32,379 nucleotides of DNA, taken from the NCBI GenBank assembly GCA_944324465.1, contig CALUWI010000021.1, forward strand, positions 1 through 32,379, in the 5' to 3' direction. Numbering within the stretch: the first letter of the stretch is position 1; every line of letters starts with the position of its first letter. The notes beneath the pieces were generated by a model. That model was not told the origin of the DNA. It was given only the letters and a program-made list of their open reading frames with translations, and did not search any database. This document shows, in pieces, positions 19,419-32,379 of this stretch. The position numbers and the translations under genes were made by a program. Source of the stretch: an uncultured Mucispirillum sp. (lineage in GTDB: Bacteria; Chrysiogenota; Deferribacteres; Deferribacterales; Mucispirillaceae).

Positions 19419-20732
19419 ATGGCAATGATAGCAGACGAAGTGTTAAAAGCTATGAAATGTAAAGAGCTTGAAACTAAATATAGTAATGTTAGAAAAGGTT
19501 TAAGAATGTCGCTTGTTGCATTTTTAAAAGATAACCCTAATTATGAAAAACTGATAGAAGGGTTTGTAGGCATTGACCCAGCTGATAAAAAAACAGAAGC
19601 AAGGCGTAATTTTCTTGATGAACTTGGCGAAATATCTAAACTGATGGATGATGCTTTTAATAAACTTGGCGATGCTGAAGAAGGTGCTCTTGCTCATAAA
19701 CTTACAACTGTATCTGCCATTTATATGGAGCGTATTGGCCAGACATGCTTAGAAGCTAAAACAAACTATTTTCCAATGCATAAAGAAAAGTTTGCAATGT
19801 ATGTTTCTGAAGACCAGGAAGCAAAAGCCATTGTTCCTAGAACTACACTTAAAACTATCAAAAACTATCTTGATAAATGGTTTTTCTTAATGCAGCAGTA
19901 TTCTGTAAATGCAAAAGCAAAAATTATTTATACCAAACTTAATGATTTCAGAGATAAACTGCATCATTTTGAATATGTAATGGGTAAGTCAGTTAATAAA
20001 TTACAGCGTGAATATGTAAAAGAGATTATTCCTTTTATGAAAGATACAAAACTTGCTCTTTTGCGTATGCGTAAGTTTTTTGAAGCAATAGATGCATCTG
20101 CTTTTGGTAAAATGATAAAAGCACTTACAGATGTTGCTATGGAAAATGGCACAAGGGTATATGTAAAATATAATGCTGTACTTACAATAGTTGCAGGTAA
20201 TGTTAGGAAAGGCAGTGTTATTCCTGTGCAGACTATTGTTGATAAATATGATAATGTAATGTTTCCTATCAGACAGACTGTGGCAGAGCTTGATACAAAA
20301 CTTGGGGGCAGCCGTGCAAAAGACCCAGCAAAAGCATTCTGGGATATTGCTTCTCAAATTACATCATTTAGAGATGGCATGCATTCTGTTATAGATGAAT
20401 TTTCAAAAGGTATCAGCCCGTCAGATGAAGATTTTAAATTTTTCACTCATACTGCTCAAGCTGTACTTATTCCATATATGAACCAGACAAAAGGGGAAGT
20501 TAACGATACCTTTATTAATGGTGTTAAAAATTTAGACACTTTTTTCTGGAAAATTATGACGAAAGCTATAGAAAATTCTCAGGAAAAAGGCGAAAAAATG
20601 GATGAGATTGTTGGGCTTGCTGTTAGAGTTACACAAAAAGAGCTTGATAATTTCTTATCAGAAAATAAAGAACTTGCAGATGATAATTTAGCAGAAGAAA
20701 TTGAAAATGCTTCAAGCAGTTCTGAAAAATAA
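19419..20732 (+). CDS. Unrecognised all-helical cytoplasmic protein
   Basis: A 437-residue protein that I cannot assign to a family. It has no signal peptide and no membrane segment, and its sequence looks almost entirely helical. Charged heptad-like stretches occur at about 15-45, 95-135 and 150-240, with a Glu/Asn/Ser-rich acidic tail from about 400. Proline is sparse and no nucleotide-binding motif is visible. Start: AGGGG lies 9 nt before the ATG. Coding quality is good throughout, with ordinary codon use for this region, so it is a real gene. It precedes the DUF4910-type gene by 19 nt, implying co-transcription. It could be a structural or scaffold protein. Confidence 0.7.
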   Translation: MAMIADEVLKAMKCKELETKYSNVRKGLRMSLVAFLKDNPNYEKLIEGFVGIDPADKKTEARRNFLDELGEISKLMDDAFNKLGDAEEGALAHKLTTVSAIYMERIGQTCLEAKTNYFPMHKEKFAMYVSEDQEAKAIVPRTTLKTIKNYLDKWFFLMQQYSVNAKAKIIYTKLNDFRDKLHHFEYVMGKSVNKLQREYVKEIIPFMKDTKLALLRMRKFFEAIDASAFGKMIKALTDVAMENGTRVYVKYNAVLTIVAGNVRKGSVIPVQTIVDKYDNVMFPIRQTVAELDTKLGGSRAKDPAKAFWDIASQITSFRDGMHSVIDEFSKGISPSDEDFKFFTHTAQAVLIPYMNQTKGEVNDTFINGVKNLDTFFWKIMTKAIENSQEKGEKMDEIVGLAVRVTQKELDNFLSENKELADDNLAEEIENASSSSEK

Positions 20733-20751: not shown

Positions 20752-22011
20752 TTGAAAGAATTAATAAAAAAACATTTATATACATCAAGATCACCAGTTT
20801 CTGATGAAAATAATAATCTTGTGCATGATGTTGCATCTGAGCTTAATGCAGATATTATAAAAAGCAAATGTGGCAGCGAAGTTTTATCGTGGATTATTCC
20901 TTTATACTGGAAAGTGATAAAAGGCCAGTTGAAAGATTTATCTGGTAATATTTTAATAGATTTTAAAAATAATCCACTTCATCTTTGGACAAACTCTATT
21001 TCTTTTCAAGGCAGAATAACTAAGCAGGAATTAGAAAACCATATTCTGACAGATAAAAACCGTCCAGATTTAATACCATACCATTATAAGTTTGGGTTCA
21101 GCACAGCAATGCAAAACTGGGGATTTTGTATTTCCTATAATGATTATGTTAAAATGCAGGATAATGAATATATTGTAGATATAGATACAGAGCTGCATAA
21201 TGATAATTATATGCTTACAGGCGTAAAGACTATTAAAGGTCAGGAAAATGGCAGCACTTATGTTTTTGCAGCCCATACATGCCACCCGGCTATTGCAGTA
21301 GACGGACTTACAAATGTTATAGTACTTATGAAAGTATTCAAAGAACTTGAAAAAAGAAATGTAAAAAATACATATAAATTTGTATTTGGTTCAGAATATT
21401 ATGCAGCAGCTGCATTTTTAAATACATTAAATGAAAAAGAAGAAAAAAGTATAAAAGGTGCTTTTTTCTGCGACTTAATAGGGGCAGATACTAAGCCTGC
21501 ATATTCATCATCATTTCAAGGCGACAGCCTTATAGACAGCATTACAGCTCATATTTTTAAACACAGGGTAAAAGATTACAGCTCTTATGGTTACAGGCAG
21601 TTAATAGGTAATGATGAAATGTTTTATAATGGACCATATTATAACATACCAACAGTAACACTTGGGCAGAATGTGCCAGCATATTATCATTCAAGCGGTG
21701 ATAATTATGAAAAAATAGATTTTGATATGCTTGAAACATATAAAGAATATATTTTAGATATAATAAATATCTTAGAAACAGATTATGTACCTGTGCTTAA
21801 ATACAAAGGTCCGCTTTGCTTATCAAGATATAATCTATATATAGATTTTAAAGCAAACCCTGAAGGCTACAGACATATAGAAGCAGCACAAATATTAGCA
21901 GATGGTAAAACTTCCTGTTTTCAAATAGCAGAAAAAACAGGGGCTGAATATAATTTTATAAAAAATTTCTTTGATGAACTTGTAAAATATAATCTGGCAG
22001 TAAGAAAGTAG
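20752..22011 (+). CDS. DUF4910-type zinc aminopeptidase-like protein with C-terminal winged helix
   Basis: A 419-residue protein of the DUF4910 (formerly DUF2172) group, related to M28 metallopeptidases. Candidate zinc ligands and catalytic residues are kept: H175 and H178 in AAHTCHP, D184, E215 in VFGSEYY, D241 in FFCDLIG and H313 in YYHSSGD. The usual NDN after the His motif is VDG here. Residues about 370-419 look like a winged-helix tail (AAQILADGKTSCFQIAEKTG). Start is TTG: the preceding in-frame stop ends at 20742 and no ATG occurs for over 100 codons. Members often sit in surface-polysaccharide loci, as here beside an AAC(3)-type acetyltransferase. Confidence 0.83.
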   Translation: MKELIKKHLYTSRSPVSDENNNLVHDVASELNADIIKSKCGSEVLSWIIPLYWKVIKGQLKDLSGNILIDFKNNPLHLWTNSISFQGRITKQELENHILTDKNRPDLIPYHYKFGFSTAMQNWGFCISYNDYVKMQDNEYIVDIDTELHNDNYMLTGVKTIKGQENGSTYVFAAHTCHPAIAVDGLTNVIVLMKVFKELEKRNVKNTYKFVFGSEYYAAAAFLNTLNEKEEKSIKGAFFCDLIGADTKPAYSSSFQGDSLIDSITAHIFKHRVKDYSSYGYRQLIGNDEMFYNGPYYNIPTVTLGQNVPAYYHSSGDNYEKIDFDMLETYKEYILDIINILETDYVPVLKYKGPLCLSRYNLYIDFKANPEGYRHIEAAQILADGKTSCFQIAEKTGAEYNFIKNFFDELVKYNLAVRK

Positions 22012-22012
22012 C

Positions 22013-22840
22013 CTATTTTTTCATTACAGGCCCATCATTAGGAATTTGCCCTGCAGGAAAATCTGGTTTATGGTCAAGATGTATATATGGGTTTTTAAGA
22101 ATATTGTTAATTAAAATATCAGTAACTTGTTTTATTGAAACAGAACTTATTTTACTGGATAAATAAGGGACTGTATTAATATATTTATTATATTCTAGTT
22201 CATATTCAATATCTGTTGTTTTTTTATATTCTATATCTTTATTAAGGTATCTGACAGATGCAAATGTATAATCGTAAATCAGCTGGCCGTTAGTATAGAC
22301 TGGTATATTATATATTTTATTATACATATAAGGAACACCAGCTTTAAATTCTGCATAATGTCCCATTGTTACAGAAAACATATTTGTTCCTAAAAGAATA
22401 ATTTTAGCATCAAGTTTATATAGTTTATCAAATGCTGATTCTGCACCATAATTATGTCTTGAATGAGGTGCACATATATATTCTGCATTTTTACCAACAG
22501 CAGCAACAGCAGCTAATGGATTACAGCTTCGTTTACTTATGGGCAGGGAATGGATATATTTAGCAAAAACACCTAATTCTTTTGATACTGGTGAAAGTGC
22601 TGTGTCAAAAGGAATACCAAATCGTGCATATTCATAGAAATATGCAGGAACACACAAAGTTCCTTCACTGCCAAGAACTTCTTTAAATGTTTCATAAAAC
22701 ATACATAGAGTATCTTTTCTGGAAAAATTTTCTGTAGTACCGAATGCAGCAATGTCACTGTGAATGAATATTGTATCGCCTTTGTCTACACCAGCATTAT
22801 ATAATGCTTCTGTTATTCCTTTTTTAGTAATATATTCCAT
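22013..22840 (-). CDS. AAC(3)-family acyl-CoA N-acetyltransferase
   Basis: A 275-residue member of the aminoglycoside 3-N-acetyltransferase fold family. The marks are GDTIFIHSDIAAFG (H27), EGTLCVPAYF, RSCNPLAAVAAVGKNA, the SAFDKLYKLDAKIILLGT block and GHYAEFKAGVPY (H161). Chromosomal members in glycan loci usually acetylate amino sugars, so drug resistance should not be assumed. The start is set here because GGAG (22847-22850) lies 6 nt before this ATG. A longer frame to 22921 lacks a ribosome site and would begin upstream of the likely promoter. Its stop codon is 2 nt from that of the converging peptidase gene. Confidence 0.9.
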   Translation of the reverse strand: MEYITKKGITEALYNAGVDKGDTIFIHSDIAAFGTTENFSRKDTLCMFYETFKEVLGSEGTLCVPAYFYEYARFGIPFDTALSPVSKELGVFAKYIHSLPISKRSCNPLAAVAAVGKNAEYICAPHSRHNYGAESAFDKLYKLDAKIILLGTNMFSVTMGHYAEFKAGVPYMYNKIYNIPVYTNGQLIYDYTFASVRYLNKDIEYKKTTDIEYELEYNKYINTVPYLSSKISSVSIKQVTDILINNILKNPYIHLDHKPDFPAGQIPNDGPVMKK

Positions 22841-22867
22841 TGTAATCTCCATAATTAAGTTATTACT

Positions 22868-22895
22868 ATTATATAAAAATTTTAGCAACCAGAAA
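22868..22895 (-). promoter_or_regulatory. Possible promoter of the AAC(3)-type gene
   Basis: Minus strand: a perfect TATAAT (22868-22873) with a weak TTTCTG 16 nt upstream (22890-22895). It would give a leader of about 20 nt to the start at 22840. Confidence 0.4.
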
Positions 22896-23066
22896 ATGTT
22901 TTCTAATTTATCTACTACCACATATTTTTATTGCATTAAGATAAAAAATATAAAGTAAATACTTGTGGTTTAAACAGTTTATGTCAAAAATATAAGATTA
23001 GATTAATAAATATTATGGAAAATTATTTAATTATAAATCGGCTAATGATATTTTTTATGAGAACTT

Positions 23067-23180: not shown

Positions 23181-25511
23181 ATGCATATTAACTCAGTAGA
23201 TTTTTTTAACTGTACAGGGTGTTCTGCCTGTGCTGCCAAATGTCCACATAAAGCTATAGAGATGAAGGAAAACAATAATGGCTTTCTGTATCCTGTTGTT
23301 GTAGAAGATAAATGTACAAATTGTGAGTTATGTGTTAAGATATGTCCAGCACTTCATGTTTCTAATGAAGAAAATGAACTTAAAGAATGTTATGCAGCTA
23401 TGGCTTCTGATGAAATAAGGCAGCTTAGTTCATCTGGTGGAGTGTTTACTGTCCTTGCAGAATATATTTTATCTCAAAATGGCTATGTATGCGGTGCAGC
23501 TTTTGATGATAACCTGCAGTTAAGTCATAAAATTATTAATAATGTTAATGAGCTTGATAAACTTAGACGGTCAAAATATATTGAAAGCCATATTAATAAT
23601 GCATTTTCTGATATTAAAGCTCTATTAAAAAATGATAAATATGTTCTTTTTTCGGGTACACCTTGTCAAGTGGCTGGTTTAAAAGCCTATTTAGGAAAAG
23701 AGTACGAAAAACTTTATACTATAGACTTAGTCTGTAAAGGTCCATCTTCACCAAAAGTATTTAAAAAATATCTTAGCGAACAGTTTAAAGATTTAAAAAT
23801 ATATGATTATAACTTTAGAGACAAAGCTGGCGGTTGGTATAATTATTGTGGCAGTGTTATTACTGAACATGGAAAGCAGGTATTTAAAGCTGTTGATGAT
23901 TTGTTTTATAAATTTTATATTCCAAAAATAAATATAAGAAAAGGATGCGATGAATGCAGTTATGCAAAACTTAATAGAATTGCAGATATTACTCTTGGTG
24001 ATTTTTGGGGCATTAAAGATAAGAGACCTGATTTAGATGATGGTAAAGGCACATCGCTTATTTTTTTAAATACAAGTAAAGGTAAAGAACTTTTTTTAAA
24101 ATGTAGAAAAACTTTCAAAAAATGCGAAAATGTTCCTGTAGATTATACATTTAAAAATACAATTTTAAATCCAAATGCCCACCATATTGGCAGGACAAGA
24201 TTTTTTTCTAATTTAGATAAATGCAGTTTGTATGAAAATCTGCTTGATGTTACCAATATTAAAAACAATATACTTATATTTAATACATACAATTCTAATA
24301 CAAATTTTGGTTCAGTTCTTACAGGTTTTGCATTAAATTATTTTTTTAATAATTGCTGTGATGGCAGATATAGTGCTCAAAATTTAGAGTTCAAACTGGA
24401 TGTTATTAAAAATGAATCAAAACTTTTAATTAATGAAGATTCCCATAAATTTCCAAATGGTATTAATCCTGCTTTTGCATCTTTTAGAAGAAAATATATA
24501 TCAAGCACAAGCGAAAGATTTTATATGCGAGGGCTGCCTTACTATAATGATGAATTTACTCACTTTATTGTTGGTTCAGACCAGATGTTTAATACTACTG
24601 GTTCTAATGAATGGTTTGCTGTATTACTGCAGTTTGTAAAAAATGATAAAAATATTATATCTTGTGCGGCTAGTTTTGGTAATTATAATATTGATGCAAA
24701 TGATGAAATAAAAGATATGTATAAACAGTCATTAAGTCGTTTTGACTCAATAAGTATAAGGGAAAAACAGGGTGTAGAAATATGTAAAAATTTAGGTCTG
24801 CATGCAGAGCATGTTTTAGACCCGGTTTTTTATATTGAGCCAAGTGTATATTATAAAATTGCTCAGACTGCTGCAGATAAGCAGATTTCTCCATTAGTTT
24901 GTTATTCTGTAGGTGATAACTTTTGGAATGGATTAAAAAATTATTTTGAAAACAGTCAGTCAAAGTATTTTAATAAATATGATAATATAAAACGGTTAGA
25001 TTATCATATGAGTATTGAAAGCTGGCTGTATCATATTATGAACTGTGAACTATTAATTACAAACAGTTTTCACGGTGTTTGTTTTGCAATTATTTTTGGT
25101 AAAGAATTTATAAGTGTTAATAGTCAATCTTCATCAGACAGAGTAATATCTCTTTTGGAAGATATTGGCATTGAAGGTCATAAATTCTATTCTATTGCAG
25201 AGATTGATATAAATATTGTAGAAGCTAATAAAATAGATTATCAAAAAGTTTACGATAAATTAAAGATAAAAAAAGAGAAATCAATACAAGTTTTACTAGA
25301 TGCTGTGGAAAAATTTGAGAATACAGAAGAAAAAACAAATAATAAAAAAATGTTTTTGCATAAACTTATAGATTTCTACACAAATAGATATAATGAATGC
25401 ATACAAAAATTAAAGGCTGGTAGTTTAGATTTATCTGAAGAAGAAAAAAGTAAATTAAATAATGATGCATTAAATTATAAAGCCTTTATTGATTTTATTA
25501 ATAATAATTAA
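23181..25511 (+). CDS. Fused FrhB-like iron-sulfur protein and polysaccharide pyruvyl transferase
   Basis: A 776-residue two-part protein. Residues 1-60 carry two CxxCxxCxxxC ferredoxin clusters (C11, C14, C17, C21; C45, C48, C51, C55). Residues about 65-340 match the F420-hydrogenase/dehydrogenase beta-subunit (FrhB) family, with SSSGGVFTVL, FSGTPCQVAGLKAY (C162) and CDECSYAKLNRIADITLGDFWG. Residues about 370-690 match polysaccharide pyruvyl transferases: NILIFNTYNSNTNFGSVLT, THFIVGSDQMFN, SIREKQGVEICKNLG and LLITNSFHGVCFAII. A lysine-rich helical tail ends it. Such proteins occur in capsule and exopolysaccharide loci. The first half may reduce a sugar or cofactor with flavin; the second half is expected to add a pyruvyl ketal to a sugar. 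GAGGTG precedes the ATG. Confidence 0.92.
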   Translation: MHINSVDFFNCTGCSACAAKCPHKAIEMKENNNGFLYPVVVEDKCTNCELCVKICPALHVSNEENELKECYAAMASDEIRQLSSSGGVFTVLAEYILSQNGYVCGAAFDDNLQLSHKIINNVNELDKLRRSKYIESHINNAFSDIKALLKNDKYVLFSGTPCQVAGLKAYLGKEYEKLYTIDLVCKGPSSPKVFKKYLSEQFKDLKIYDYNFRDKAGGWYNYCGSVITEHGKQVFKAVDDLFYKFYIPKINIRKGCDECSYAKLNRIADITLGDFWGIKDKRPDLDDGKGTSLIFLNTSKGKELFLKCRKTFKKCENVPVDYTFKNTILNPNAHHIGRTRFFSNLDKCSLYENLLDVTNIKNNILIFNTYNSNTNFGSVLTGFALNYFFNNCCDGRYSAQNLEFKLDVIKNESKLLINEDSHKFPNGINPAFASFRRKYISSTSERFYMRGLPYYNDEFTHFIVGSDQMFNTTGSNEWFAVLLQFVKNDKNIISCAASFGNYNIDANDEIKDMYKQSLSRFDSISIREKQGVEICKNLGLHAEHVLDPVFYIEPSVYYKIAQTAADKQISPLVCYSVGDNFWNGLKNYFENSQSKYFNKYDNIKRLDYHMSIESWLYHIMNCELLITNSFHGVCFAIIFGKEFISVNSQSSSDRVISLLEDIGIEGHKFYSIAEIDINIVEANKIDYQKVYDKLKIKKEKSIQVLLDAVEKFENTEEKTNNKKMFLHKLIDFYTNRYNECIQKLKAGSLDLSEEEKSKLNNDALNYKAFIDFINNN

Positions 25512-25790: not shown

Positions 25791-25819
25791 TTGACAGTAA
25801 ACTGTATATATGATATATA
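25791..25819 (+). promoter_or_regulatory. Strong extended -10 promoter of the acyl-carrier cassette
   Basis: A perfect TTGACA (25791-25796), a 17-nt spacer ending in TGA and TATATA (25814-25819) make an extended -10 promoter. Transcription would start near 25826, just before the GGGGG ribosome site at 25835-25839. Confidence 0.75.
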
Positions 25820-25844
25820 TTTAAGAATATTCATGGGGGTATAT

Positions 25845-26996
25845 ATGGCAGTATCACAATTTAACCATGTAAAAATATCTGGTATTGAGTATGTTGTTCC
25901 AAATAATATCTGTAGAAATGTAGATGATTATCTTCATTTTTTTGATAATAATCCTAAAAAACTTCAAAGAGCTAAAAAAATTATTGGCTATGGTACTAGA
26001 TACAGTGCACCAGAAGGTGTTACAGCATCAGATATTTGTGAATATGCAGCAAACACGTTGTTGTCAAAAATAAATATGGATAATAAAAGTATTGATGTAC
26101 TGATTTTTGTATCACAATCACCAGACTATTTTGCACCTCCATCATCGCAGGTTCTGCATAAAAAACTTCAACTTTCAGAGTCGTGTGCCGTATTTGATGT
26201 TACTCAAGGCTGTACTGGTTATGTATATGGGCTATGGCTTGCATCATCATTAATAGAAAGTGGTGCAGCAAAGATAGTGCTGCTTTGTGCTGGAGATAAT
26301 ACATATATTGACCCAGAATTTGAACAAAAAGGAAAAAGTTTACTATTTTCTGACGCAGCAAGTGCTACTTTATTAGAATATTCTGAAGATATAGTAAAAT
26401 CTCACTATTATATTGGTTCAAAAGGTGAAGGATATGAATCAATTATTTTCCCTGCTGGTAGAAACAGGCTGCCAGTATCTGAAAAAATATTAAAAACTGT
26501 TATTACAGATAAGGACGGCAATAAATGGAAACTGCATGAAGGTTTTATGGATGGACTTGCCGTATTTGATTTTACAATGAATACTGTTCCTGAACATATT
26601 GCAGGCTTAATGCAGTCATCAAAGTATAGTATTGATGATATTGATTTTTTTGCAATACATCAGGCTAATAAGCAGATAGTTAAAACTGTAGCAGAAAAAG
26701 CAGGTATACCAGAATCAAAATATTCTGTAGAAACATTTAGCAAATATGGAAATCATGGTGGAATTTCATGTTTATCTAATCTTATTGATATTTATGCCGA
26801 TAATATAAAGAATAAAATGCAAAAAGTGGCTTTAATAAGTTATGGCACTGGGTTATCCTGGGCATCTGCAGTATTAGATATTGGTAATATATATTGTTCT
26901 GGTATACAGTTAACTCATTTTGAACCAGAAAGAAATCATAATGAAGAATTTGAATACTGGGTAAATAAAATATCAAATTATAGTGCAAGTAAATAA
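25845..26996 (+). CDS. 3-oxoacyl-ACP synthase III-like condensing enzyme
   Basis: A 383-residue thiolase-fold enzyme of the FabH (KAS III) family. These condense an acyl-CoA starter with malonyl-ACP. The Cys-His-Asn triad is complete: C123 in DVTQGCTGYVYGL, H272 in AIHQANKQ and N303 in KYGNHGGIS. The last motif differs from the housekeeping GNTSAAS form, which points to a specialised pathway rather than general fatty acid synthesis. Start: GGGGG lies 5 nt before this ATG; a frame extending to 25791 would begin inside the -35 box and is rejected. It is first of a cassette and is followed after 16 nt by a carrier-protein gene. The C-terminal tail (about 355-383) is polar. Confidence 0.92.
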   Translation: MAVSQFNHVKISGIEYVVPNNICRNVDDYLHFFDNNPKKLQRAKKIIGYGTRYSAPEGVTASDICEYAANTLLSKINMDNKSIDVLIFVSQSPDYFAPPSSQVLHKKLQLSESCAVFDVTQGCTGYVYGLWLASSLIESGAAKIVLLCAGDNTYIDPEFEQKGKSLLFSDAASATLLEYSEDIVKSHYYIGSKGEGYESIIFPAGRNRLPVSEKILKTVITDKDGNKWKLHEGFMDGLAVFDFTMNTVPEHIAGLMQSSKYSIDDIDFFAIHQANKQIVKTVAEKAGIPESKYSVETFSKYGNHGGISCLSNLIDIYADNIKNKMQKVALISYGTGLSWASAVLDIGNIYCSGIQLTHFEPERNHNEEFEYWVNKISNYSASK

Positions 26997-27012
26997 GTAA
27001 AGGAGATAAAAT

Positions 27013-27222
27013 ATGAATTTTTATGAAAAATTAGCAGATATATTTGAAGAAGATGTTACAGATGAAACAATTTTAAAAGATTTGGATTCCTATGATTCTT
27101 TAAGTATATTATCTATTATTGCTATGTGTGATAAAGACTATCATATAACAGTTACAGCATCAGAAATAAGAGCACTTGATACTGTTGGTGATTTAAAAGC
27201 ATTTATTGAAAGTAGAAAATAA
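27013..27222 (+). CDS. Acyl carrier protein
   Basis: A small acidic helical protein of 69 residues with the phosphopantetheine-attachment motif DSL (serine S29, in SYDSLSILSII). The helix after the serine and the VTASEIRALDTVGDLKAFIE segment match ACP helices II to IV. It would carry the growing acyl group between the neighbouring condensing enzyme and reductase. AAAGGAG precedes the ATG. Shorter than the housekeeping ACP (usually about 77-80 residues), it is a dedicated carrier. Confidence 0.9.
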   Translation: MNFYEKLADIFEEDVTDETILKDLDSYDSLSILSIIAMCDKDYHITVTASEIRALDTVGDLKAFIESRK

Positions 27223-27231
27223 ATTATACTG

Positions 27232-27963
27232 ATGGAAAAATTATATACTTTAGTTACAGGTGCAGTTTCTGAAATAGGGCAGAATGTTTGTAAAAAAATA
27301 GCTGCAAATAGTCCGCTTATACTGCAGGGCAGAGATTTTGATAAATTAAGCAGATTTAAGGAAAGTCTGCCAGAAAGCAAAGACCATTTAGTTTGGCAGT
27401 ATGATTTTATAAATGCAGATAATTTATGTTTTGATACTGCATCCTTTATAGAAAGTAATAATATACATATAAAGAATGTGGTTCATATTGCAGGTATTGC
27501 AGAGTTTTTTCCAGCTCATTTATTAAACAGGCAAAATATAAAAACTTCTTTTGATGTAAATTTTTATTCTATTTTAGATATTTTAAGTGTGCTTGCAAAA
27601 AAGAAATATAAAAGTTTTTTAAACAGTATTGTCTTGATATCATCAGTTTCTGTTCATTCTGCTTCTGGCAAAGGGATGGCTGCTTATACAAGCTCAAAAG
27701 CTGCTATGGAAATTTATGCTAAATCTATAGCCGCAGAGATTGCTCCAGCAAGAATTAATTCTATTGCATTAGGTGGAATCAAGGTTAATAAAAATGATGG
27801 TATTAGTAAGTCATTGGATAGTAATATATCATCATATCCACTAGGAATTGGTATGCCTGATAATGCTGCTGATATGGTATCGTTTTTGCTGTCAGATAAT
27901 TCATCATGGATTACAGGGCAGACATTTATTGTAGATGGTGGTTATTCTGTCTGTAAAAAATAG
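27232..27963 (+). CDS. Short-chain dehydrogenase/reductase (FabG-like)
   Basis: A 243-residue Rossmann-fold oxidoreductase of the SDR family. The cofactor motif TGAVSEIG is at residues 9-16. The catalytic residues are N110, S138 in ISSVS, and Y152 and K156 in AYTSSKAA. The C terminus has the classical SSWITGQTFIVDGGY. Placed after a KAS III and an ACP, it most likely reduces a 3-ketoacyl-ACP to the 3-hydroxy form. It starts 9 nt after the carrier-protein stop with no clear ribosome site, implying translational coupling. Confidence 0.93.
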   Translation: MEKLYTLVTGAVSEIGQNVCKKIAANSPLILQGRDFDKLSRFKESLPESKDHLVWQYDFINADNLCFDTASFIESNNIHIKNVVHIAGIAEFFPAHLLNRQNIKTSFDVNFYSILDILSVLAKKKYKSFLNSIVLISSVSVHSASGKGMAAYTSSKAAMEIYAKSIAAEIAPARINSIALGGIKVNKNDGISKSLDSNISSYPLGIGMPDNAADMVSFLLSDNSSWITGQTFIVDGGYSVCKK

Positions 27964-27977
27964 ACTGGTGGTTTTAT

Positions 27978-28190
27978 ATGGTAACTAATCTAATTGAATA
28001 TTTTGAAAATACTACTGTAAATCTAAATGCAGAAAAAACGGCAGTTATTGATAACGATAAAGAATATTATTTTAAATATATAAGAGATAATTCTAAAAAA
28101 TTAGCCACTTATTTACTTTTTTATAATATTGCAGTTTATAACCAGCCTACTGCTGTTTTTCTTGATAAATCAGTAAATGTATTTGCTTAA
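27978..28190 (+). pseudogene. Truncated adenylation-domain fragment
   Basis: A 70-codon frame with an ATG and a weak GGTGG upstream that resembles only the N terminus of the next gene. Shared pattern: M-x-TN-I-x-x-x-FEN at the start, KTA near 20, then SKKLATYLL against SRRIASYIL, and PTAVFLDKSVNVF against PIIVLLEKGVYNL. It stops where the intact protein continues into its core. None of the ATP-binding motifs is present, so it cannot be a working adenylation enzyme. I infer the leftover of a tandem duplication or gene replacement. It could still be expressed as a short peptide. Confidence 0.7.
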
Positions 28191-28209
28191 TAAATTGTAG
28201 AGGGTATTT

Positions 28210-29733
28210 ATGCAAACAAATATTATTGATTTATTTGAAAATAATGCTTTAAAAAATTATCCAAATAAAACTGCCTACAGAGATTTAAAAAATGAAGTAA
28301 CTTTTAATAATATATATGATAAAAGCAGACGTATAGCAAGCTATATATTAGATATTAAAAATATAAAAAATAAACCAATCATCGTATTATTGGAAAAAGG
28401 CGTATATAATTTACTGGTATTTCATGGTATAACTTATAGTGGCAATATATATGTTCCGATTGATATTACACAGCCAAAGGAAAGGATTGAGAATATTATA
28501 TCTGTTCTAAATCCAGAATTAGCTATTGTAAACGAGAATACAAAAGAAAAAGTTATAAATATCTTAGATAGTGAAAAGATAATATATATCGAAGATTGTT
28601 TATCATATCATATCAATGAAAAGATACTTTTAACTGTAAAACAGAATATTATAAGTACAGACCCTTTATATATACTTTTTACATCTGGTTCTACAGGAAT
28701 ACCAAAAGGTGTAGTAATAAATCATCAATCTGTACTAGATTATATTGAATGGGTATATAAAACATATAGTTTTACTTATAAAGATATTATTGCAAATCAA
28801 GCACCTTTTTATTTTGATAATTCAGTACTTGATATATATATAACATTAAAATCTGGCTGTACTCTGTATATTATGCAGGAGAAAAATTTTGCTTTTCCAG
28901 CAAAAATATTAGAAGAAATAGAAAATAATAATGTAACATCATTATTCTGGGTACCATCTGTATTAATATCAATTGCAAACTCTATGCTGCTTGAAAAATA
29001 TACATATAAAGGACTTAATAAAATTTTGTTTGCAGGAGAGGTTATGCCAAATAAACAGTTGAATGTTTGGCGTAAATATATGCCTAATGCATTATTTTCA
29101 AACTTATATGGTCCCACAGAAATAACGGTAGACTGTTTATATTATATTGTTGATAGAAAGTTTGAAGATGATGAGCCATTACCAATAGGTAAACCTTGCA
29201 GTAACAGTGATGTAATGATTTTAAATGATAATAATGAATTTGTAAAAGATAATGAAATAGGCGAAATATGTGTTAGGGGTATATCTTTATCTATGGGATA
29301 TTATAATAATCCAGAAAAAACACGAGAGGTTTTTATTCAAAATCCGCTTAATAAAAGTTATCCTGAACTTATCTATAGAACAGGAGATTTAGGATATTAC
29401 AACCACTATAAAGAAATTATGTATGTTGGTAGAAAAGATTTTCAAATTAAACATAATGGATATAGAATTGAGCTTGGTGAAATAGAAACGGCTGTTTCTT
29501 CTATAGATGAAATAAATAATTTATGTGTTTTATATAATTACTCAGCAAAACAGATTGTTTTATTCTATACAGGAAATAAAGAATTGGATTTAAAATATAT
29601 AAGGACAAAACTTCTAAGCAAAATTCCAAAATATGCATTACCTACACAGATATTTTATTTAGAAGAAATGCCATTAACAGCAAATGGTAAAATTAACAGA
29701 CAAAGATTACATAAAGAATATATTGGAGAATAA
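28210..29733 (+). CDS. AMP-forming adenylation enzyme (amino acid/D-alanine ligase type)
   Basis: A 507-residue ANL-superfamily enzyme that activates a carboxylic acid as adenylate and loads it on a carrier protein. The core motifs are intact: LFTSGSTGIPKGV (156-168), NQAPFYFDNSVLDIY (A4 region, about 196-210), NLYGPTE (298-304), YRTGDLGYY (389-397), GRKDFQIKHNGYRIELGEIE (407-426) and catalytic K494 in PLTANGKINR. Length and motif wording fit DltA and stand-alone NRPS adenylation domains more than acyl-CoA synthetases. An aminoacyl substrate is likely but unproven. AGAGGG precedes the ATG. The DltC-like carrier two genes downstream is the probable acceptor. Confidence 0.93.
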   Translation: MQTNIIDLFENNALKNYPNKTAYRDLKNEVTFNNIYDKSRRIASYILDIKNIKNKPIIVLLEKGVYNLLVFHGITYSGNIYVPIDITQPKERIENIISVLNPELAIVNENTKEKVINILDSEKIIYIEDCLSYHINEKILLTVKQNIISTDPLYILFTSGSTGIPKGVVINHQSVLDYIEWVYKTYSFTYKDIIANQAPFYFDNSVLDIYITLKSGCTLYIMQEKNFAFPAKILEEIENNNVTSLFWVPSVLISIANSMLLEKYTYKGLNKILFAGEVMPNKQLNVWRKYMPNALFSNLYGPTEITVDCLYYIVDRKFEDDEPLPIGKPCSNSDVMILNDNNEFVKDNEIGEICVRGISLSMGYYNNPEKTREVFIQNPLNKSYPELIYRTGDLGYYNHYKEIMYVGRKDFQIKHNGYRIELGEIETAVSSIDEINNLCVLYNYSAKQIVLFYTGNKELDLKYIRTKLLSKIPKYALPTQIFYLEEMPLTANGKINRQRLHKEYIGE

Positions 29734-29734
29734 T

Positions 29735-30907
29735 ATGAAAACATGTCCATTTTGTGGTAGTAATGAATACATTGATATAAGAAAAATAAATGTCTATAAT
29801 TATATGCTGTGCAATCTGCCTGTTAAAGAAGAACCTGTTCAGATGAAGATTTATACTTGCAAACATTGTGGACTTGGAATATATCATGATTATTTAAGTG
29901 ATAAAGAGTTAGAAGATATATATAATAATTATTTTTATCCATTCCATTATTTTGATAACCCTAATATATCATGGTATAATGATTTTGATGTTGATTTTAT
30001 TGCAAAACATATACAAACTGAGGATAGTAAAATTGTAGAACTTGGATGTCACGATGGCTTTTTTATGGATTTACTGCAAAAACATGCATCTTTACAAGGC
30101 AAACATTACAAAAATTTATTAGGCATAGAGCCATCTCCAAATGCTGATATTGGAATAGCTCATGGATTGAAAATAGAAAAAAACTTTTTTAAAGAAAATT
30201 ATTTTCCAGATAATGAGAAAGTTGATTTATTTTATTCAAGCCATGTATTTGAGCATATAAAGGATCCTTTTACCTTATTTAACAATATGCTTGTCCAGTT
30301 AAATAAAAATGGTAAAATAATTATAATTGTTCCAAATTTTTCTGGTTATGATATTACTCACTACTATTATTATTCTTGGCCATTTTTTGAAAAAATGGCT
30401 GAAAAATATGGAGCCAAAATTATTGATGCAAAAATTACATATTCATCTTTAAGACAGATTGAAGAATTAAAAATAGTTTTTAGTAAAAAAAATGCAGAAT
30501 ATGACGAAGTAAAGTGTCCTTTTGATATGCATTTTATTATTAAACATGAAAAGGAAATGCAGGATAAACTGGTATCTGAATTTTTAGATGGTTTTCAATT
30601 GATTAAAAAATTTGTAGAAAATAAAGAAGTTGTATACTGGTATGGAACCGCAAGTTACTACCTAGTTAGTTACTGTGGATTACTTTCAAAAAGAAAGGTA
30701 AAATATAATATCATTCCAGTTGATAATGAACAAAATAGGCAAGGTTTTAAAATTCCATACTGTTCTGCACCTGTGGAGTTATTAAAAGATTTTTCAAATC
30801 AAGTGCTGGATAATATGGTTATTTCTGAAATAGACAAAGAAACAGTTATACCATTATTAAAAAAATATAATATAAAAATTAATAATATATTGTATTCTAA
30901 ATTTTAA
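29735..30907 (+). CDS. Zinc-ribbon SAM methyltransferase with C-methyltransferase C-terminal domain (copy 1)
   Basis: A 390-residue three-part enzyme. Residues 1-50 form a zinc ribbon (CPFC at 4-7, CKHC at 42-45). Residues about 90-250 are a class I SAM-binding fold with motif VELGCHDGFF. The C-terminal third matches the Methyltransf_14 domain: VVYWYGTASYYLVSYCGLL, then IIPVDNEQNRQGFKIPYC. This is the layout of NDP-sugar C-methyltransferases. The usual YHEH catalytic segment is replaced by YDITHYYYYSWPF, so substrate or chemistry may differ. Start: GGAG lies 6 nt before this ATG, overlapping the ligase end; a longer frame lacks a ribosome site. It is paralogous to the gene at 31156. Confidence 0.9.
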   Translation: MKTCPFCGSNEYIDIRKINVYNYMLCNLPVKEEPVQMKIYTCKHCGLGIYHDYLSDKELEDIYNNYFYPFHYFDNPNISWYNDFDVDFIAKHIQTEDSKIVELGCHDGFFMDLLQKHASLQGKHYKNLLGIEPSPNADIGIAHGLKIEKNFFKENYFPDNEKVDLFYSSHVFEHIKDPFTLFNNMLVQLNKNGKIIIIVPNFSGYDITHYYYYSWPFFEKMAEKYGAKIIDAKITYSSLRQIEELKIVFSKKNAEYDEVKCPFDMHFIIKHEKEMQDKLVSEFLDGFQLIKKFVENKEVVYWYGTASYYLVSYCGLLSKRKVKYNIIPVDNEQNRQGFKIPYCSAPVELLKDFSNQVLDNMVISEIDKETVIPLLKKYNIKINNILYSKF

Positions 30908-30921
30908 CATTGGAGAATAAA

Positions 30922-31146
30922 ATGAGAGAAAAAATACTTGAAATATTACAGGATTTACGCCCAGAGCTTGATTTTACAGAAAGTAATGATTTTATTGAAG
31001 ACGGATATTTAGATTCTTTTGATATGATAGCACTTGTATCTCAGCTTGATAAAAATTACGGTATCTCAATTTTAGGGGAAGATATTATTCCAGAAAACTT
31101 CTCAAATATTGAAAATATAATAAATACTGTAAAAAAATATCAATAG
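30922..31146 (+). CDS. DltC-like acyl/aminoacyl carrier protein
   Basis: A 74-residue acidic carrier protein with attachment motif DSF (serine S32, in DGYLDSFDMIALVSQLD). The DSF form and the following helix resemble D-alanyl carrier proteins and single NRPS carrier domains more than fatty-acid ACPs. It is the likely acceptor for the upstream adenylation enzyme. The ATG used here follows GGAG (30912-30915) by 6 nt; a TTG at 30910 overlaps that ribosome site and is rejected. It sits between two paralogous methyltransferases, 14 nt after the first and 9 nt before the second. Confidence 0.9.
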   Translation: MREKILEILQDLRPELDFTESNDFIEDGYLDSFDMIALVSQLDKNYGISILGEDIIPENFSNIENIINTVKKYQ

Positions 31147-31155
31147 GTTATATAT

Positions 31156-32313
31156 ATGAAGTGTAAATTTTGTGGCGGCAGTGATTTTATTAATTTAAAT
31201 AATGTTGTTGCCTTAAATTATGTTAATTCAACATTACCTATTAAAGCAGTTCCTGTTAGTATAAAAGTTGATGTATGTACTTCCTGTGGTCTTGGTGTAA
31301 ACCATACTCCATTAAGCAGGGAAGAATATAATCAAATATATAATAATTTTTTTTATTTTGCTTATTATTTTGATGATGTATTTAAAAAATATTTTTATAT
31401 AGATGATATAAGTTTTTTTGTTAAACATATACCAAATCTTGATAGTAAAGTTGTAGAGCTTGGCTGCCATGATGGGCATTTATTATATATGATACAAGAG
31501 TATCAAAAACAGCATGGTAATGGTAATTTTACTAACCTTATGGGTATTGAACCTTCTCCAAATGCAGATATTGGTATTGCTCATGGACTGCATATAGAAA
31601 AAGCATATTTTAAACCAGGCTATTTTAAAGATAATGAAAAAGTAGATGTATTTATTTCCCGCTGTTTTTTTGAACATTTAGAAGAACCGTTTGAAATGTT
31701 TAAAGCCATGCTTGATTCATTAAGTGATAATGGTAAAATTATAATGAAAGTGCCAAATTTTACGGGATATGACCTTACTCATTTATATTACTATTCTTGG
31801 CCTTTTTTAGAGAAAATGGCTGCAAAATATAATGCAAAAATTATTGATTGTTTAATCAAATATCAAGAAATATGGAATGCAGAAGAAATTACTGTTGTAA
31901 TAAGTCATAAAGATGCAGAATATCCAGCAATAAAATGTCCATTTGATATAGAATATACAGTTAAGCATGAAAAACAGCATATTTTGGAAGATAAAAAACT
32001 GTTTTCTATGGACTGTATTGAAATGGAAAAATTTATGCGCGACAAAGAAAATGTTTATTTTTTAGGCACATCAGTTCATGCTCCATACTATTTAACAGTT
32101 CTAAATAAAATGAAAGTTAAAACAAATATTATACCAGTAGATATTCTACAGAATAGAAAAGGCTATGAACTTCCATACTGCAATAATCCTGTAATTTTAC
32201 TTTCTGATTTAAAAGGTAAAAAAATTGATGCTATGGTTATTAATGGTCATAATAAAGAAGATATTTTTGCAAAACTTAATACATATAATATAAATGTAGA
32301 AAAGAGCCTGTGA
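31156..32313 (+). CDS. Zinc-ribbon SAM methyltransferase (copy 2), 3' end altered by an insertion
   Basis: A 385-residue paralogue of the gene at 29735 with the same three parts: zinc ribbon (CKFC at 3-6, CTSC at 41-44), SAM motif VELGCHDGHL near 100, and a Methyltransf_14-like C-terminal third ending in NIIPVDILQNRKGYELPYC. It shares long identical stretches with copy 1, such as MGIEPSPNADIGIAHGL against LGIEPSPNADIGIAHGL. It also has the unusual YDLTHLYYYSWPF in place of the usual catalytic segment. The last residues EKSL and the TGA stop fall inside the insertion-sequence end that begins at 32304. Copy 1 continues several residues further, so the native C terminus has probably been lost. 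The loss is small and may be harmless. Confidence 0.88.
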   Translation: MKCKFCGGSDFINLNNVVALNYVNSTLPIKAVPVSIKVDVCTSCGLGVNHTPLSREEYNQIYNNFFYFAYYFDDVFKKYFYIDDISFFVKHIPNLDSKVVELGCHDGHLLYMIQEYQKQHGNGNFTNLMGIEPSPNADIGIAHGLHIEKAYFKPGYFKDNEKVDVFISRCFFEHLEEPFEMFKAMLDSLSDNGKIIMKVPNFTGYDLTHLYYYSWPFLEKMAAKYNAKIIDCLIKYQEIWNAEEITVVISHKDAEYPAIKCPFDIEYTVKHEKQHILEDKKLFSMDCIEMEKFMRDKENVYFLGTSVHAPYYLTVLNKMKVKTNIIPVDILQNRKGYELPYCNNPVILLSDLKGKKIDAMVINGHNKEDIFAKLNTYNINVEKSL

Positions 32314-32379
32314 AAAAAAGTCTGTAAATAGTGCGAACTTAAGTTTTCTATGATATACTAAAAAGATATGAAAGGAGCT
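32304..32379 (+). mobile_element. Left end of an insertion sequence (runs off the window)
   Basis: The sequence GAGCCTGTGAAAAAAAGTCT begins here. Its first 25 nt match 811-835 at all but two positions, and AGTTTTCTAT recurs further in. The window ends with AAAGGAG, a good ribosome site whose start codon, presumably for a transposase, would lie just beyond. The end resembles IS256-type termini as I remember them; the transposase is not visible, so the family is uncertain. Confidence 0.6.

Follow-up and report, generated by a model that had tools for sequence, protein, structure and literature searches.

The window considered here, a stretch of 32,379 nucleotides forming contig C21 of a 2.42-Mb Mucispirillum assembly (97.5% complete; hereafter G000, with G001-G008 among the genomes compared with it and G007 a sister Mucispirillum sp.), carries a set of genes that is probably an accessory operon for decorating the flagellin glycan, placing hydroxyacyl and aminoacyl groups, possibly methylated, onto flagellin pseudaminic acid. 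Its parts, their intact motifs, the pairing of enzymes with cognate carriers and the flagellin and pseudaminic acid (pse) context of such modules are read from the sequences; from these we infer every chemical step, the amino acid, the methylation target, the transfer step and the final structure.

The operon occupies positions 25845-32313 of the plus strand and comprises seven intact or nearly intact genes, with gaps of at most about 20 bases, around a short remnant. Their order is ketoacyl-ACP synthase III (KAS III), acyl carrier protein 1 (ACP1), a short-chain dehydrogenase/reductase (SDR), the remnant, an amino-acid adenylation enzyme, methyltransferase 1 (MT1), ACP2 and MT2 (Table 1). An original prediction on this DNA had named a KAS III, an ACP, a ketoreductase, an adenylation enzyme, a DltC-like carrier and two methyltransferases, all of which Pfam and NCBIfam profiles recovered, while the remnant of a second adenylation enzyme had been overlooked. 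It had also placed the genes under one promoter, a view supported by the tight gene spacing and left without support by a general promoter scan, which returned 58 promoter-like sites against 55.5 +/- 7.4 in shuffled sequences, no excess; promoter and terminator scans were uninformative. The operon start that it gave, 25791, is instead the -35 hexamer of the promoter-like site, the KAS III ATG lying at 25845.

Table 1. Features of the operon, followed by those of its surroundings, in window coordinates (aa, amino acids; cut-offs are those of the profile models).
Feature	Position	Strand	Evidence
Promoter-like TTGACA-17-TATATA, TG before the second hexamer, 5' of a GGGGG ribosome-binding site	25791..25819	+	by eye
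KAS III, FabH-type	25845..26996	+	PF08541 1.6e-18, PF08545 2.2e-14
ACP1, carrier of the KAS III module, YDSLS	27013..27222	+	PP-binding 25.0 bits > cut-off 20.8; 62% identical to G007
SDR reductase, FabG-like, YxxxK present	27232..27963	+	PF13561 2.6e-28; 44% identical to G007
Second adenylation enzyme, remnant (first 70 aa), remainder deleted	27978..28190	+	59% over 68 aa to intact 525-aa G007 copy at the same place
Free-standing amino-acid adenylation enzyme, DltA-like	28210..29733	+	TIGR01733 331.7 bits > cut-off 317.4; 80% identical to G007
MT1, methyltransferase, N-terminal CxxC...CxxC, TcaB9/KijD1-like fold	29735..30907	+	PF13489 1.1e-10; PDB 5t6b 8.2e-6
ACP2, DltC-like carrier, LDSF	30922..31146	+	PP-binding 21.5 bits > cut-off 20.8; 85% identical to G007
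MT2, MT1 paralogue, last codons from the repeat	31156..32313	+	~50% identical to MT1
Terminal part of a multicopy repeat closing the contig, probable insertion sequence	32304..32379		97-100% copies, ends of five other contigs
437-aa protein, genus-conserved, at island border, no convincing family	19419-20732		
DUF4910/DUF2172 M28-type putative peptidase, Cj1295-like by annotation	20752..22011	+	PF16254 2.2e-33; PDB 3k9t 4e-36
N-acyltransferase of the AAC(3) family (Antibiotic_NAT), candidate for the transfer step	22013..22921	-	PF02522 6.4e-30
776-aa protein, ferredoxin/FrhB-like domains and polysaccharide pyruvyl transferase, just 5' of the operon	23181-25511		

The first three genes would supply the acyl group. 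KAS III, ACP1 and the ketoreductase adjoin one another with their catalytic residues intact, and the same trio is found in G007 and G001, while a KAS III next to an acyl-type ACP also occurs on contig C8 of the window's own genome and in G001, G003, G005 and G007. The window's KAS III, 61% identical to its G007 orthologue, has PRK12880 as its best NCBIfam model (232 bits, under the cut-off of 436), misses the general FabH subfamily TIGR00747 (153 bits vs 292.1) and keeps the FabH-type Cys-His-Asn triad (C123, H272, N303). The variant GNHGG motif singled out in the original prediction is present, but it is not functionally odd, because the triad with its catalytic Asn is retained and the motif at this position also differs in the orthologue (GNTAG) and in a paralogue from the same genome (GNTSS). 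Condensation of malonyl-ACP with a short acyl starter by KAS III, followed by reduction through the SDR, would yield a short 3-hydroxyacyl-ACP1, probably the 3-hydroxybutyryl form.

Independently, the adenylation enzyme would activate an alpha-amino acid and load it onto ACP2. The Asp that binds the alpha-amino group is present in its motif FDNSV, and both carriers have the serine of a DSL or DSF motif; one phosphopantetheinyl transferase was found in the genome, as the sole match to Pfam ACPS (PF01648). A specificity code taken by eye from an alignment (D-N-L-F-L-A-L-V-D-K) indicated no single amino acid, and of its residues only the Asp for the amino group was relied upon. In the window and in every sister locus examined, the adenylation enzyme adjoins a DltC-type carrier or lies one gene away from it. 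This pairing, together with that of KAS III and an acyl-type ACP in the window and its sisters, supports the earlier proposal that the two carriers are separately loaded. Eight of the ten Mucispirillum genomes encode free-standing adenylation enzymes, the exceptions being G006 (one contig, 98% complete) and G002 (86% complete). Outside the genus, order-wide hits (46 genomes) with E values of about 1e-50 or better sit in frames of at least 1788 aa that look like nonribosomal peptide synthetases.

A free-standing amino-acid adenylation enzyme with a small carrier is also found in the Dlt system, and the two proteins could be read as DltA and DltC, with an MBOAT protein carrying the amino acid across the membrane to a surface polymer. 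DltA and DltC are the closest subfamily models, and the genome has MBOAT genes, one of them beside the pse operon. Both curated cut-offs are nevertheless clearly missed (314.9 bits vs 559.85 for the DltA model TIGR01734; 29.8 bits vs 68 for the DltC model PRK05087, the best NCBIfam match of ACP2), and neither an MBOAT nor a DltD-like gene turned up close to any of the module copies, nor did a DltB/DltD partner close to the window pair. Furthermore, MBOAT and module do not track each other, since G006, a single contig, has MBOAT genes and lacks the module. A Dlt-like role is thus very unlikely.

The connection to the flagellar glycan comes from where these modules recur. On contig C8 of the window's own genome, a flagellin gene adjoins genes for a KAS III, an ACP, a fusion of AAC(3) and DUF4910 proteins (encoded separately in the window), a DltC-like carrier and a DltA-like enzyme, after which comes a glmU-like gene; the same flagellin-linked arrangement is present in G001 and G005, with a variant in G007. 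In G008, direct orthologues of the window's adenylation enzyme (61% identical) and ACP2, accompanied by a GNAT gene, adjoin a flagellin gene. In each of the ten Mucispirillum genomes searched, a gene for a NeuB-family synthase lies a short distance from one for a Maf-type flagellin glycosyltransferase. For example, the pse operon of the window's genome (contig C2) encodes PseB, PseC, a cytidylyltransferase-like protein (recognised by eye, without an NCBIfam hit), a formyltransferase, PseI and a Maf/PseD-like protein. Of these, PseB, PseC and PseI all exceed their cut-offs, and the Maf protein exceeds that of PF01973 while scoring 168 bits with the PseD model NF050051, below its cut-off of 670. 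The flagellar-glycan link suggested earlier is therefore upheld by the same modules lying beside flagellin genes and by pse and maf genes in the genome.

Products that decorate lipopolysaccharide or capsule, made by a variable island that merely resembles the flagellin-linked set, would fit other observations: the window's genes lie in an island that is bordered by a 437-aa gene and ffh, is remote from flagellin and pse genes, differs from species to species and includes a polysaccharide pyruvyl transferase gene. N-acyl-aminoacyl sugars are, moreover, known in O-antigens. We still judge this destination unlikely, given that five genomes have these modules linked to flagellin, that orthologues of the adenylation enzyme and ACP2 themselves are so placed in G008, and that the island has no recognisable gene for a glycosyltransferase or O-antigen polymerase.

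Two side observations concern the pse operon on contig C2. Between its cytidylyltransferase-like and PseI genes lies a formyltransferase-like gene (L073:13256-13828), where G006 has a GNAT-like gene, and the sugar made by the window's genome may be N-formylated. Beside the operon stand an MBOAT acyltransferase gene and a 521-aa neighbour without a Pfam family (L073:19026-19877 to L074:2164), a pair not seen beside the pse operon of G006.

MT1 and MT2, which resemble TcaB9, would methylate the sugar or its amino-acid substituent. For MT1, the start at 29735 was preferred over 29684, in agreement with the orthologue. Its sequence matches sugar 3-C-methyltransferases (5t6b, 8.2e-6), and a predicted structure (pLDDT 82, pTM 0.80, from an input alignment of five sequences only) resembled dTDP-sugar C-methyltransferases, the top 18 Foldseek matches all being KijD1, TcaB9 or MtmC (E 1e-15 to 2e-14, TM 0.57-0.63). 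MT1 shares with these enzymes the overall fold and the N-terminal Cys pairs, at 16-17% identity. Of five TcaB9 residues probed by mutation, Y76, H181 and H225 have matching equivalents in an HMMER alignment to KijD1 (Y68, H174 and H209), and Y222 and E224 do not. A broad scan of 84,980 species genomes detected the family at five loci only, suggesting that it is rare or too divergent for such a scan. One homologue, in a metagenome-assembled genome of the methanogen Methanoregula, lies near PseB, PseC, PseG and PseI genes, all over cut-off, and its product contains PF08484, the C-methyltransferase C-terminal domain; two further loci, in G003 and a Deferribacterales genome, adjoin genes reading as DUF4910 relatives. 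This context speaks for a pseudaminic-type sugar or its substituent as the methylated group. A carrier-bound amino acid would be just as compatible with the gene order, in which MT1 lies between the adenylation enzyme and ACP2. The original prediction had offered two targets, the carrier-bound product or its sugar, and the first of these is no more than a candidate. A broken methyltransferase gene, in pieces of 63 aa and 98 aa, is also present in the flagellin-linked operon of contig C8 (L051:19188-19951), where G003 has an open reading frame of 254 aa.

A KAS III, an adenylation enzyme, carriers and methyltransferases also constitute a typical parts list for a small natural product, in this case a secreted free acyl-amino acid without any glycan. 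Such a product appears most improbable, as the window operon has no recognisable condensation domain, thioesterase or exporter, the modules have a flagellin-, pse- or DUF4910-linked context in several genomes, and MT1 has the fold of a sugar methyltransferase.

To complete the proposed decoration of flagellin, AAC(3)-type and/or GNAT acyltransferases, together with the Cj1295-like DUF4910 protein, would attach the groups to a pseudaminic-acid-type sugar, at its amino or hydroxyl positions, and a Maf transferase would pass the decorated sugar to flagellin. The 3-hydroxyacyl group of ACP1 and the (methylated) amino acid of ACP2 might even be joined into an acyl-aminoacyl side chain on pseudaminic acid, a tentative and rather doubtful extension. 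If both carriers do feed one product, the operon would amount to a free-standing assembly line of the nonribosomal type, in miniature and reserved for a flagellin sugar.

Several points weigh against the assignment to flagellin. The window operon itself is not beside flagellin or pse genes, and the transfer step has several candidate enzymes, none of them proven. PseG was not found in the window's genome, so that its route to the nonulosonic acid is not fully standard. Two TcaB9 residues probed by mutation, Tyr222 and Glu224, are replaced by Asp and Thr in MT1 (D206 and T208 in the alignment to KijD1). The second adenylation enzyme is deleted and MT2 is clipped, the repeat that begins near 32304 providing its final codons and stop codon, so that the pathway may be partly broken here. 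Finally, we know of no chemistry or glycan structure for these organisms.

Each half of the operon resembles known flagellin-modification systems; only their combination had no counterpart in the literature searched. The hydroxyacyl half is like the viosamine island of Pseudomonas syringae (vioA, vioM, vioT, vioS, vioB, vioR and acp), in which a KAS III, an ACP, a 3-oxoacyl-ACP reductase and a methyltransferase serve the flagellin glycan; the proposed product is dTDP-N-(3-hydroxy-1-oxobutyl)-2-O-methylviosamine, and mass spectra were obtained for mutants in vioR and vioM (PMC3927599). Unlike the window operon, that island is without an adenylation enzyme or second carrier, and its sugar is viosamine, not pseudaminic acid; no sugar aminotransferase was found in the window operon, PseC being encoded on contig C2.

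The C. jejuni Cj1295-Cj1308 locus offers a second comparison, with Cj1295, the Cj1296/7 N-acetyltransferase, acyl carrier genes, Pse and Maf (PMC3068675, PMC6338021). Cj1295, a putative aminopeptidase, is required for di-O-methylglyceroyl-Pse on flagellin (PMC3068675), the acyl group there being di-O-methylglyceric acid. The analogy with Campylobacter drawn in the original prediction is reasonable at the level of annotation, as the DUF4910 and AAC(3)-type genes of the window are of the kinds annotated for Cj1295 and Cj1296/7 (PMC3068675), a likeness that refers to the published annotations only. For Cj1307/Cj1308, the literature search returned passing mentions only.

Carriers, ligases and reductases recur in other flagellar systems. 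In the sections of the Aeromonas study at hand, group II polar flagellum glycosylation islands contain an ACP, a 3-oxoacyl-ACP reductase, an AMP-dependent synthetase, LuxE, LuxC and pse genes (PMC7874193), a set matched by the ACP, ligase, LuxE and LuxC of contig C14; the same sections describe these islands as glycosyltransferase-rich and list no KAS III, DltA/DltC-like pair or DUF4910 (PMC7874193). Enterobacteriaceae islands likewise combine an ACP, a reductase, an AMP-ligase, LuxE and LuxC, for which a liposugar was suggested (PMC4875605). Methylated amino acids on flagellin have a precedent in Clostridium difficile 630, whose type A glycan bears N-methyl-L-threonine; it is phosphate-linked, and the excerpted text mentions no carrier protein (PMC4441256).

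The label of a new pathway was thus overstated, given the match to vioS, acp and vioR, the Aeromonas and Enterobacteriaceae islands with carrier, ligase and reductase, and the known sugar-methyltransferase fold. In the literature searched, a hydroxyacyl module paired with an aminoacyl one of DltA/DltC type, the recurrence of this pair beside flagellin and its end product were not found described, nor did the search return a specific aminoacyl-carrier or O-antigen precedent for sugar aminoacylation. Genes for carrier proteins, ligases and reductases whose presence is unexplained are frequent in flagellar glycosylation islands. Mucispirillum presents them in compact form: its carrier pairs, Cj1295-like protein and AAC(3)-type enzymes are found repeatedly next to flagellin, and relatives without the module serve as natural negatives. 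In mouse models, Mucispirillum has been linked to inflammation (PMC5285517), and the decoration of its flagellin may influence how the host perceives the bacterium.

Regarding the surroundings of the operon, the end of contig C21 and the start of contig C14 probably belong to one variable island between the conserved 437-aa gene and ffh, as judged from gene order in sister genomes. The syntenic run of G007 comprises KAS III, ACP1, SDR, AAC(3), adenylation enzymes 1 and 2, MT1 and ACP2, continuing with a formyltransferase-GNAT fusion, a second KAS III, a metallo-beta-lactamase-fold protein, an ACP and SDR genes up to ffh. In the window's own genome, the ffh-side part is on contig C14 with ACP, LuxC, LuxE, AMP-ligase and radical SAM genes. 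Sequence beyond the insertion sequence, sought in the original prediction, is supplied by G007 and contig C14 through synteny and not by direct joining, since the repeat at the end of the window is not found at the start of C14. The interval between the 437-aa gene and ffh carries another gene set in G003 and has shrunk to a broken DUF4910 gene in G001. The fusion in G007 unites a formyltransferase and a GNAT domain in one protein of 569 aa, encoded directly 3' of ACP2 (L015:13930-15639), and the broken DUF4910 gene lies at the island site both in G001 (L049:11238-12102) and in G005 (L050:231-659), as if the island had been lost there.

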